Assembly (NCBI GenBank): GCA_027022065.1
Contig: JALVZS010000103.1
Span: forward strand, 1 to 9,527
Source: a bacterium
GTDB lineage: Bacteria > Thermosulfidibacterota > Thermosulfidibacteria > Thermosulfidibacterales > Thermosulfidibacteraceae
Reading direction: 5' to 3'
DNA: 9,527 bases
The notes under the pieces are model-generated. The model worked only from the letters and a program-made list of their open reading frames with translations. It was not told the origin of the DNA and made no database searches. Position numbers and translations under genes: made by a program. How positions within the stretch are numbered: the stretch's first letter is position 1; every line of letters begins with the position of its first letter. This document shows positions 1,802-4,748 of the stretch, in pieces.

Positions 1802-2482
1802 CTATCTTAAGATAACCTTCTCTACACAGGGGCGGAGGATTGAGGCAAGCTCTTCCATTTCCTCTCTTGTATAGGGGATTACCTTTTCAAAGGATGGGTC
1901 AAGGGTTTTTGTGTTTATAAACTTCTGAATGGCCACACGCTTTGCACCTTTGAGTATCTCCGCAATTCTCTTTAGTTTTTCTCTGTCAATAAACCCTCTT
2001 ACCGCTGTTATTCTGAACTCGTGCTCCACGGGGGATGATTTTAAAAGCTCTATGGATCTTTCCACCTCCTTCCAATTTCCGCCAAGGAGAGGGTATTCAT
2101 TAGGAGTGGCTTTTACATCAAGGGCTATGTAGTCTGCGATAGAAAGCAGCTTTTCAAGCACCGTTGGAAGGCTTCCGTTGGTGTCTATCTTAACCGGAAG
2201 GCCTAGATCTTTGATTTTTTCCACCAGCCTGATGAGCTTGTCCCTGTGCAGAAGGGGTTCTCCACCTGTTATTACCACGCCGTCTATAAAATTTTTGCGC
2301 CTTTCAAGCTCTTTAAGAGCCCTTTCTTCCTCAATATCTGGAAGTTCTTTTAGCCTTTCGGGAAGTACAAGGTCAATGTTGTAGCAGTAGGGACAGCGGA
2401 AGTTGCAGCCCCCGGTAAAGATGACCGAGGCCACCTTACCGGGGTAATCCACAAAGCTTGTTCCTATAAAGCCCTTTATCAA
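1802..2482 (-). CDS. nrdG: Anaerobic ribonucleotide reductase activating protein (radical SAM)
   Basis: A 226-residue radical SAM activase. It uses a [4Fe-4S] cluster and S-adenosylmethionine to generate the 5'-deoxyadenosyl radical that installs the glycyl radical on class III RNR. The cluster motif is C26-x3-C30-x2-C33 (GCNFRCPYCYN). ITGGEPLL at 71-78 is the SAM-binding GGEP motif, and the N-terminal GTSFVDYPGK is typical of NrdG-type activases. The start is TTG at 2482-2480, and it is the only choice: an in-frame TAG lies just two codons upstream, and any later start would cut into the conserved N-terminus. The TTG overlaps the stop of the preceding small glycyl-radical ORF as TTGA. The nearest SD-like AAGGA is about 10 nt upstream, so coupled translation is likely. 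Homologous activases serve other glycyl radical enzymes, but the operon makes NrdG the best call. Confidence 0.92.
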   Translation of the reverse strand: MIKGFIGTSFVDYPGKVASVIFTGGCNFRCPYCYNIDLVLPERLKELPDIEEERALKELERRKNFIDGVVITGGEPLLHRDKLIRLVEKIKDLGLPVKIDTNGSLPTVLEKLLSIADYIALDVKATPNEYPLLGGNWKEVERSIELLKSSPVEHEFRITAVRGFIDREKLKRIAEILKGAKRVAIQKFINTKTLDPSFEKVIPYTREEMEELASILRPCVEKVILR

Positions 2483-2637
2483 AGGCTATTTATCCTTACG
2501 TAGCGCCTCTCTTTAAACTCCTGCTTTTTGCCTATGTTCCAGTTGCTCACGGGCCTGTAGTATCCCACCACCCTTGAGTATATTTCACAGGGGATGGCAA
2601 TGGCCTTAACCTTTTTCTTCTCCTTAACGCTCTGCAT
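2479..2637 (-). CDS. Stand-alone glycyl-radical domain of class III ribonucleotide reductase (split NrdD subunit)
   Basis: A 52-residue ORF encoding MQSVKEKKKVKAIAI, then PCEIYSRVVGYYRPVSNWN, then IGKKQEFKERRYVRINSL. The EIYSRVVGYYRPV..WN.GK..EFK.R pattern is the C-terminal glycyl-radical segment of NrdD, with G25 as the predicted radical residue (aligned with E. coli NrdD G681). The nrdD gene upstream ends without this motif, so the domain is encoded separately. The ORF lies in the +1 frame relative to nrdD and overlaps its end by 14 nt. It has a perfect AAGGAGG 6 nt before its ATG, and its TGA overlaps the nrdG start as TTGA. The Lys-rich N-terminus (five Lys in residues 5-11) may dock on the acidic NrdD tail. 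The family resemblance is very strong. Inferred role: an obligate radical subunit charged by NrdG. The alternative is the 3' part of a frameshifted nrdD. Confidence 0.85.
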   Translation of the reverse strand: MQSVKEKKKVKAIAIPCEIYSRVVGYYRPVSNWNIGKKQEFKERRYVRINSL

Positions 2638-4717
2638 CGCTCGCCTCCTTCAGTATAGTTATAGCTCCTTCCTCAAACTTTGAAAGCTCATCCTCGTCAA
2701 GCTCTACCTCAACGCCGAAGCGCTCAAGGTCCTCCTTGGTGTGCTTGTAGGGGCAGTAGGGGTACTCCCCTGGGATGTATCCGTGAACGGGGCAGACGGA
2801 GAATGTGGGCGTTATACTGAAGTACGGGAGCCTGAAGTTGGTAACTATCTTTCTTACGAGGTTTTTCACAGTTTCTTTGTCCGGTATCTCTTCTCCCACG
2901 AACAGGTGCACCACCGTTCCGCCTGTGAAGAGCACCTGCAGATCATCCTGGTGGGTTAGAAGCTCGTATATGTCGTCGGTCCAGCTCACAGAGGGGTGCA
3001 CCGAGTTGGTGTAGTAGGGTGCGCTGTCCGTTCCTGCCGTGATTATGCGGTAGAACTTTTCCTTGTCCTTTCTTGCCAACCTGTAGGATGCTCCCTCTGC
3101 CGGTGTGGCCTCAAGGTTGTAGAGATTGCCCGTTTCCTCCTGAAAATCCATGAGTTTTTCCCTCATGAATTTGAGCACCTTTATGGCAAAGGCCTTGCCC
3201 TCGGGATCCGTTATGGGAACTCCCAGGTAGTTGAGGCACATTTCATTCATTCCCACAACGCCTATGGTGGAGAAGTGGTTTGTCCAGTAGGCTCCCGTGC
3301 ACTCTTTAACCTTGGAGAGGTATACCCTGGAATAGGGGTAAAGCCCTTTCTCCGTGAAATCCTCTATAACTTTGCGCTTTATCTCCAAGGAGATCTTGGC
3401 AAGCTCCATGAGGTGGGAGAGCCTGTCAAAGAAGTCCTCCTCGCATGTGGCCAGATACCCGATTCTGGGCATGTTTATGGTTACCACTCCTATGGAGCCC
3501 GTTAAGGGCGCTGCACCGAACAGTCCTCCCTGCCTCTTTCTCAGTTCTCTGTTGTCCAGTCTCAGGCGGCAACACATGCTCCTTGCATCTTCAGGCGACA
3601 TGTCGGAGTTTACATAGTTGGCAAAGTAAGGTATGCCGTATCTTCTGGTCATCTCCCACAGAGGATCTAAAGCGGGGTTGTCCCAGTCAAAGTCCTTGGT
3701 GATGTTGTATGTGGGTATGGGAAAGGTGAAGATCCTCCCTTTGGCATCTCCCTCTATCATCAGCTCGCAAAAAGCCCTGTTTATCATGTCCATCTCTTTT
3801 TGGAACTCCCCGTAGGTTTCGTCCCTCAGCTTTCCTCCCACAACCACAGGGGCGTTTTTCAGAGACTCGGGCACAAAGAGATCCATGGTTATATTGGTAA
3901 AGGGCGTTTGGAAGCCCACCCTTGTGGGCACATTCAGGTTGAACAGAAACTCCTGCAGAGCCTGCTTAACCTCTTTGTAGGAGAGGTTGTCGTATCTCAC
4001 AAAAGGGGCAAGCAGTGTGTCAAAGTTGCTGAAGGCCTGGGCTCCTGCTGCTTCTCCCTGCAGGGTGTAGAAGAAGTTTACTATCTGGCCAAGGGCTGTT
4101 CTAAAGTGTTTTGCTGGTTTACTTTCAACCTTTCCAGGAACCCCCCCGAAGCCCCTCAACAGTAGATCGTAGAGGTCCCAACCTACGCAGTAGGGTCCAA
4201 GCACCCCTAGATCGTGTATGTGGAAGTCCCCCTCTTCATGAGCCTCTCCTATCTCGGATGGGTAGAGCTTTGTGAGCCAATACCTTGCAACCACAGAGGA
4301 GGATATGTGGAAGTTTAGGCCCTGAAGAGAATAGGTCATGTTGGAGTTTTCGTTGACCCTCCAGTCTGCCTTGTTGAGATATTCCTCTATGAGGTTTACA
4401 CCGTTTACTATAGCTCGGCTTATCTCCCTTGCCTGCCTCCTTTTCTCCCTGTAGAGGATATAGGCCTTGGCAACCTTTGCATGACCGTGCTCTATTAGGA
4501 CCTTTTCCACTATGTCCTGTATCTCTTCAACATGAGGAATGTTTCCCTTTTTGAAGAAGTTTCTGTAAAGTATGATTGCTACTTCATCTGCAAGCTCTTC
4601 GGCCCTCTTCCTGTCCGATCCCCCTACAGCTTTGGCAGCCTTAAATATGGCGTTAACGATCCTGTTTCTGTCAAAGGGAACTATGCTTCCATCTCTTTTC
4701 CTAACAAGAGGCTCCAT
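2624..4717 (-). CDS. nrdD: Anaerobic (class III) ribonucleoside-triphosphate reductase, large catalytic chain lacking the glycyl-radical domain
   Basis: This protein reduces ribonucleotides to deoxyribonucleotides without oxygen. From the ATG at 4717 it has 697 residues. The ATP-cone regulatory domain comes first (about 3-93, VRKRDGSIVPFDRNRI). The ten-stranded barrel follows, with C177 in GPYCVGWDL and C382/C383 in SMCCRLRLD matching the two active-site Cys regions of E. coli and T4 NrdD, and GVVTINMPRIGY near 410-421. A Zn-type motif near the end has C642-x2-H645 and C655-x3-H659. After it, where RVxGY should follow, there is only a 38-residue acidic tail (660-697, 14 Asp/Glu and 5 Lys/Arg) and a stop. 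The radical domain is on the next ORF. GGAGGT at 4728-4723, 5 nt before the ATG, fixes the start. A TTG at 4723 would overlap this SD. Two NrdR boxes lie upstream. Without the small ORF this chain should be inactive. Confidence 0.95.
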   Translation of the reverse strand: MEPLVRKRDGSIVPFDRNRIVNAIFKAAKAVGGSDRKRAEELADEVAIILYRNFFKKGNIPHVEEIQDIVEKVLIEHGHAKVAKAYILYREKRRQAREISRAIVNGVNLIEEYLNKADWRVNENSNMTYSLQGLNFHISSSVVARYWLTKLYPSEIGEAHEEGDFHIHDLGVLGPYCVGWDLYDLLLRGFGGVPGKVESKPAKHFRTALGQIVNFFYTLQGEAAGAQAFSNFDTLLAPFVRYDNLSYKEVKQALQEFLFNLNVPTRVGFQTPFTNITMDLFVPESLKNAPVVVGGKLRDETYGEFQKEMDMINRAFCELMIEGDAKGRIFTFPIPTYNITKDFDWDNPALDPLWEMTRRYGIPYFANYVNSDMSPEDARSMCCRLRLDNRELRKRQGGLFGAAPLTGSIGVVTINMPRIGYLATCEEDFFDRLSHLMELAKISLEIKRKVIEDFTEKGLYPYSRVYLSKVKECTGAYWTNHFSTIGVVGMNEMCLNYLGVPITDPEGKAFAIKVLKFMREKLMDFQEETGNLYNLEATPAEGASYRLARKDKEKFYRIITAGTDSAPYYTNSVHPSVSWTDDIYELLTHQDDLQVLFTGGTVVHLFVGEEIPDKETVKNLVRKIVTNFRLPYFSITPTFSVCPVHGYIPGEYPYCPYKHTKEDLERFGVEVELDEDELSKFEEGAITILKEASDAER
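2644..2650 (-). promoter_or_regulatory. Strong ribosome binding site for the small glycyl-radical ORF
   Basis: AAGGAGG on the minus strand lies 6 nt (CGAGCG) upstream of the ATG at 2637, inside the last codons of nrdD. Sequence and spacing are ideal. In the small ORF's frame a TGA immediately precedes this site and a TAA lies a little further upstream, so the small frame is open only from the SD onwards. This decides for a new initiation event here over read-through. Confidence 0.8.
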
Positions 4718-4748
4718 TTCCAACCTCCAGTTTTCTGATCCTATTCAG

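Follow-up and report, generated by a model that had tools for sequence, protein, structure and literature searches.

A separately encoded 52-residue glycyl-radical protein as the probable radical subunit of a split class III ribonucleotide reductase

The window, that is, the whole 9,527-nucleotide stretch of DNA analyzed here, comes from a fragmented MAG (251 contigs, 88% complete; G000) of a phylum with nine genomes in the collection. Its minus strand carries three genes in the order nrdD, small gene, nrdG (Table 1). The large nrdD ORF matches the Pfam NRDD family (PF13597) over profile positions 1-528 (E 5e-180), with an ATP-cone also matched, and the chain ends before any RVxGY motif, residue 699 being the last. 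The ATG at 4717, which follows a GGAGG by 6 nt, is a likelier start than the TTG at 4723. The glycyl-radical motif is found in a separate 52-codon ORF, whose translated product, MQSVKEKKKVKAIAIPCEIYSRVVGYYRPVSNWNIGKKQEFKERRYVRINSL, bears the radical Gly as residue 25 within RVVGY, continues with a WN.GK..EFK.R tail and matches profile positions 533-560 of the same family (E 4.6e-9). The small gene overlaps the nrdD stop by 14 nt (2624-2637), and its own stop is overlapped by the TTG start of nrdG as TTGA. The separate 52-codon ORF with its radical motif, both overlaps and the AAGGAGG ahead of the small-gene ATG had been claimed in a preliminary description of the locus and were recovered here from the sequence, the ORF call and the profile match. 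The same description warned that gene callers may miss so short an ORF, which proved only partly true, some records annotating the small gene as nrdD or as hypothetical.

Table 1. Features of the nrdD locus in the window and of lone radical-domain genes in two other genomes
Feature	Position	Strand	Description
Putative small glycyl-radical subunit gene	2479-2637	-	52-aa ORF, ATG start, RVVGY
Large catalytic subunit gene nrdD, lacking the radical loop	2624-4723	-	PF13597 and ATP-cone; 697-699 aa
nrdG, radical-SAM activase	1802-2482	-	TIGR02495 (NrdG2 family), E 5e-55, above cut-off
Shine-Dalgarno sequence AAGGAGG	2644-2650	-	Inside the coding end of nrdD, 6 nt before the small-gene ATG
Lone NrdD glycyl-radical gene, G006	L021:1498-1671; L228:8054-8227	+ (L021)	Mu-like prophage late genes
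Lone NrdD glycyl-radical gene, G025 (distant genome)	L020:1483-1668	-	Mu-like genes near major head protein

The two chains tile PF13597 almost without overlap, and likewise, on the NrdD of Thermotoga maritima (4COI), residues 99-614 are matched by the large chain and residues 612-645 by the small-protein profile. Together, both genes thus account for one known chain, cut just before the radical loop. The large chain includes the barrel domain with the finger-loop and barrel cysteines expected of a class III ribonucleotide reductase (RNR). Indeed, the NxN flap (N126/N128), HxHD (168-171), the barrel Cys179 and MCCR (383-386) are invariant across 30 split chains, among which the zinc-knuckle residues C644/C657 are nearly invariant. 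Class III finger loops come in two main types, and MCCR, with its methionine, represents one of them (PMC9669993). The RVxGY motif is present at the level of the system, on the separate 52-aa protein, and an nrdG of the TIGR02495 family lies nearby. The departure from the class concerns the C-terminal radical domain on the same chain, as the large chain is devoid of RVxGY and the split is conserved. An AlphaFold2 model of the large chain (pLDDT 81.9, the finger loop itself being of low confidence) has class III RNRs only as its best PDB matches, with Z about 30, and the small chain modeled alone gave a model (pLDDT 65.7) too weak for interpretation.

A complete-looking C..H/C plus C-x2/3-C/H knuckle is found in 66 of the 74 split large chains, and the knuckle is lost in three, all from Aminicenantes. 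We also weighed a zinc site completed by Cys17 of the small chain, but this idea was abandoned: the split large chains mostly have a knuckle of their own, and in many small chains this position is taken by Val or Thr. Some small radical proteins, from Nealsonbacteria and viral contigs (L089, L092, L144, L173, L182), possess their own four-cysteine ribbon before the radical motif, as though the small chain had taken over the zinc site. A glutaredoxin/thioredoxin-like tail is fused behind the radical domain of one small split protein (L245, G189) and on one-chain phage NrdDs (viral L134, L141, L155, L176 and L183; L260).

The split is present in 9/9 genomes of the phylum with an identical three-gene order, and one relative displaying it bears the NCBI label 'Aquificota bacterium'. 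At the DNA level, the ATG and the GGAGG of the small gene are conserved in relatives G001 and G002, and the TTGATAA junction is shared with G001, the aligned stretch of G002 having ended before the junction. The preliminary description had looked to relatives for conservation of the split, and it is borne out by these comparisons. The dN/dS of the small gene amounts to 0.12-0.16 to the nearest relatives, with an overall range of 0.01-0.16 where computable; judging from these ratios, the gene is under purifying selection. Protein-level conservation throughout the phylum together with such low dN/dS places the small ORF far beyond chance. The split is also found in Thermodesulfatator autotrophicus and other Thermodesulfobacteriota, Aminicenantes, Spirochaetota, Elusimicrobiota, Desulfurellales, Patescibacteria, Woesearchaeota and Pacearchaeota, and it occurs in isolates, in closed single-contig genomes and on plasmids. 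An ordinary one-chain nrdD cut by an assembly or sequencing indel, or decaying as a dying gene, would look alike in a single fragmented MAG such as the source of the window, and a base restoring one continuous nrdD had been named beforehand as the finding that would overturn the split. This event is excluded by the dozens of independent genomes that share the gene order. With that order recurring in the whole phylum, in isolates, in closed genomes and on plasmids, with the ATG and Shine-Dalgarno sequence conserved in relatives at the DNA level and with dN/dS well under 1, both the assembly-error and the pseudogene readings were rejected, their probability being negligible.

In a survey of 386 genomes, with a threshold of at least 44 bits, an NrdD-type radical domain was detected in 87, and in 41 of these 87 it is only found in a short frame. 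No distinct domain has lost the radical Gly, whether in short frames of split systems (83/83), lone (59/59) or fused (69/69). A tree was built from 133 NrdD chains (74 split, 59 fused) after removal of the radical part, and the window chain falls within a well-supported set of 36 chains, 35 of which are split. At least 11 changes between the split and fused states are forced by supported branches and the total count is 14, compared with about 44 when the labels are shuffled, the exact counts being soft as they come from a quick tree with some long branches. The near uniformity of the supported set and the repeated changes of state indicate that the split is old in this set and arose or reverted many times.

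The mode of translation was addressed on 73 split loci. Relative to the nrdD stop, the small motif is distributed over the three frames as 26/24/23; the stops are TAA in 40 loci, TGA in 23 and TAG in 10, and the radical motif lies anywhere between 19 and more than 1000 nt from the stop. In 59/73 loci, the small ORF has an ATG or GTG preceded by a strong Shine-Dalgarno sequence, compared with 69/1460 random ATGs (5%). These data bear on the alternative that programmed frameshifting or stop-codon readthrough delivers one chain, of which the small ORF would merely be the last segment. The 14-nt frame overlap in the window would suit such a product, as would the shared frame of both ORFs in about a third of loci, but neither frameshifting nor readthrough predicts the even spread over frames, the use of all three stop codons, the variable distances and the Shine-Dalgarno sequences, which argues against both. 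Programmed frameshift and readthrough were therefore rejected on frame and stop statistics, and a single product is extremely unlikely.

The locus very probably encodes a class III RNR with an obligate, non-covalent, translationally coupled 52-residue radical subunit activated by NrdG. An obligate separate radical subunit was already proposed in the preliminary description and stands as the best reading of a genome in which neither another NrdD radical domain nor a class I/II large subunit turned up. Indeed, a PF13597 search of G000 returned no second NrdD radical domain, and neither G000 nor G003 (94% complete) yielded a class I/II RNR large subunit. In both genomes, no RNR other than the split enzyme was therefore detected, although, G000 being only 88% complete, a second RNR may have been missed there. 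A class II RNR is also present in most other relatives, and the essentiality of the split enzyme is thus not general. That the chains form a complex, that the small chain bears the radical and that the pair is catalytically competent are inferences.

In the proposed mechanism, the large chain would bind substrate and effectors and carry the finger-loop cysteines and the zinc-knuckle stub, while NrdG would take a hydrogen from Gly25 of the small chain. The RVVGY loop of the small chain would insert into the large-chain barrel and, as happens within one-chain NrdD, the radical would pass to the finger-loop cysteine, here across a non-covalent interface. In Prevotella copri NrdD, the tethered radical domain is ordered with ATP and mobile or disordered with dATP, and its movement should be largely that of a rigid body (PMC11226230). 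A mobile domain of this kind does not obviously need a tether, which makes a binding interface mechanically plausible; dATP control in the split enzyme is predicted to act on small-chain binding. That the large chain relies on a different radical source, for instance a partner enzyme, with the small protein acting as a regulator, is barely credible given that the radical Gly is invariant in all distinct short, lone and fused domains and that nrdG adjoins the small gene.

The preliminary description named no characterized class III RNR of this form. The split is not peculiar to the source organism, being widespread and also found in the genetically characterized enzyme of Cupriavidus necator H16. 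In this strain, NrdDG of the pHG1 plasmid was reported to be essential for full denitrification, the plasmid-free strain being rescued by B12 (PMC2864759). The RefSeq sequence of pHG1 shows a large chain (WP_011154155), then a 66-aa protein (WP_011154154), then NrdG. As in the window, a large chain without radical motif is followed by a small radical protein and nrdG, although the H16 proteins belong to an RVMGY-type lineage distant from the window on the tree. The literature searched on the H16 enzyme names only NrdD and NrdG as its components. This system is the strongest external evidence that the split enzyme is functional. For C. metallidurans, Rmet_5137 and Rmet_5139 are given as nrdD and nrdG (PMC2864759); the split was confirmed in the sequence of the CH34 megaplasmid (L184), and the tag skipped between both is probably the gene of the small radical subunit. 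Bradyrhizobium and Paracoccus plasmids display the same split arrangement.

Besides the radical domains adjoining nrdD, lone ones occur among phage genes. Two genomes with a split NrdD, G006 and G025, carry a second, lone domain in such a setting (Table 1); in G006, which belongs to the same order as the source genome, it is located between the terminase and Mu-type portal genes of a Mu-like prophage. In IMG/VR, most of the 80 loci retrieved with the small-protein profile are short ORFs with no nrdD nearby. When 45 such viral records, which may be fragments, were searched whole, about 41 held a single lone domain only and three also held a large chain; a radical-SAM match is absent from 35 of the 41 lone-domain records, with the same proviso. 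The viral lone domains have ordinary phage genes as neighbors, namely terminase, Mu portal, GemA, Gam, Sak4, RusA and endolysin genes. A PHROGs search with the small proteins gave weak matches only (E 0.015-0.08) and no family for the lone phage domain, and INPHARED phages gave few matches, either to one-chain NrdD or to unannotated proteins; one of them, MT835493, proved to be a fused NrdD with a glutaredoxin-like tail. In one phage record (L168, G110), the radical domain (127475-127564) lies about 17 kb from the large nrdD chain (106761-110684). Other phage nrdD chains contain long in-frame inserts, possibly inteins (including L107, G075). In some split-NrdD genomes (G065, the source of L030; G067, the source of L032; G042; G401), one or more additional lone radical genes lie at a distance from nrdD, and no such extra gene was found in the surveyed genomes with only fused NrdD. 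A Patescibacteria locus (L083:4993-5370) encodes a complete NrdD with its own radical domain and, directly after it, a second lone domain; among NrdD loci, it comes closest to the PflB/GrcA pair.

This Patescibacteria pair, the lone domains carried by phages and the size and stand-alone nature that the small protein shares with YfiD and Y06I (PMC8683613) could suggest a YfiD/GrcA-like repair role for the 52-aa protein, which would then serve an enzyme that normally carries its own radical domain elsewhere. This role is very unlikely in the window, where the gene is located between nrdD and nrdG and where no NrdD with its own radical domain was found with PF13597 in the source genome or its relatives. 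Furthermore, the small protein is a member of the NrdD family: among glycine-radical families, it matches NrdD-type ones only, with no match to those of pyruvate formate-lyase (PFL) or GrcA at E up to 1. GrcA membership was thus rejected for want of both a PFL-branch match and a full-length parent with its own radical domain.

Spare-part rescue has been demonstrated only for PFL (YfiD, T4 Y06I), and spare parts for other glycyl radical enzymes have been proposed as speculation (PMC8683613). The phage lone domains are natural candidates for NrdD 'spare parts'. We tentatively propose, as a serious possibility short of a probable one, that the NrdD radical domain is a detachable cartridge, a separate subunit replaceable after oxygen damage, phage copies of which keep the host NrdD running. 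An oxygen-damaged small chain could then be swapped while the 80-kDa chain is retained. Phages and Mu-like prophages would bring the cartridge alone, usually without the radical-SAM activase, and the host NrdD served during infection would be either split or cleaved by oxygen. If true, the phage copies would form a new class of phage metabolic genes, and spare parts would become known for the first time for a ribonucleotide reductase.

Part of this picture is already known, as RefSeq names some of the small proteins nrdD and annotates the small gene of C. necator H16. Literature searches returned no description of a split NrdD in cellular genomes, with an earlier mention possible in Siedow 1999 (H16) or Wei 2014 (N. 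bacilliformis), and no biochemistry on a split NrdD pair. The reviews and structure papers found all place the radical glycine on the catalytic chain; in the present sample, a separate gene encodes it in about half of the genomes that have an NrdD-type domain. Many NrdD records seemingly lacking a radical site are complete when the short adjacent ORF is counted. Split systems offer natural two-piece tests of radical-domain docking, NrdG activation and dATP control, and split and lone domains are candidates for the long-suggested spare-part repair beyond PFL.

Among known systems, the split enzyme is close to the one-chain class III RNRs, such as those of phage T4 (1H7A), T. maritima (4COI/4U3E), P. 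copri (8P23) and S. thermophilus (9D3X), with which it shares the profile, the fold, the NxN flap, HxHD, the finger-loop Cys, the zinc knuckle, the RVxGY-type loop and the NrdG neighbor, as well as the ATP-cone, which is absent in some of them. In these enzymes, the glycyl-radical domain is described at the C-terminus of the same chain (PMC9531940, PMC9669993), whereas here a second gene product carries the radical loop and the tail, the cut being made between the zinc knuckle and RVVGY. YfiD/GrcA and T4 Y06I are likewise small stand-alone glycyl-radical proteins that the host activase activates and that complete a larger chain, but they belong to the PFL branch and repair an enzyme having its own domain, while the window system has no other copy. 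NrdJab of Pseudomonas aeruginosa is another case in which an RNR usually made of one chain is encoded as two proteins (PMC4520616); this enzyme is of class II and B12-dependent, and no radical domain is separated in it, unlike in the window system. Finally, phage nrdD genes with introns or inteins, as in Jug phages and Aeromonas phiAS4, also come in pieces (PMC12363816, PMC3653736). Their interruptions are mostly mobile elements, often respliced, whereas the window holds no insert and its small gene has its own start.
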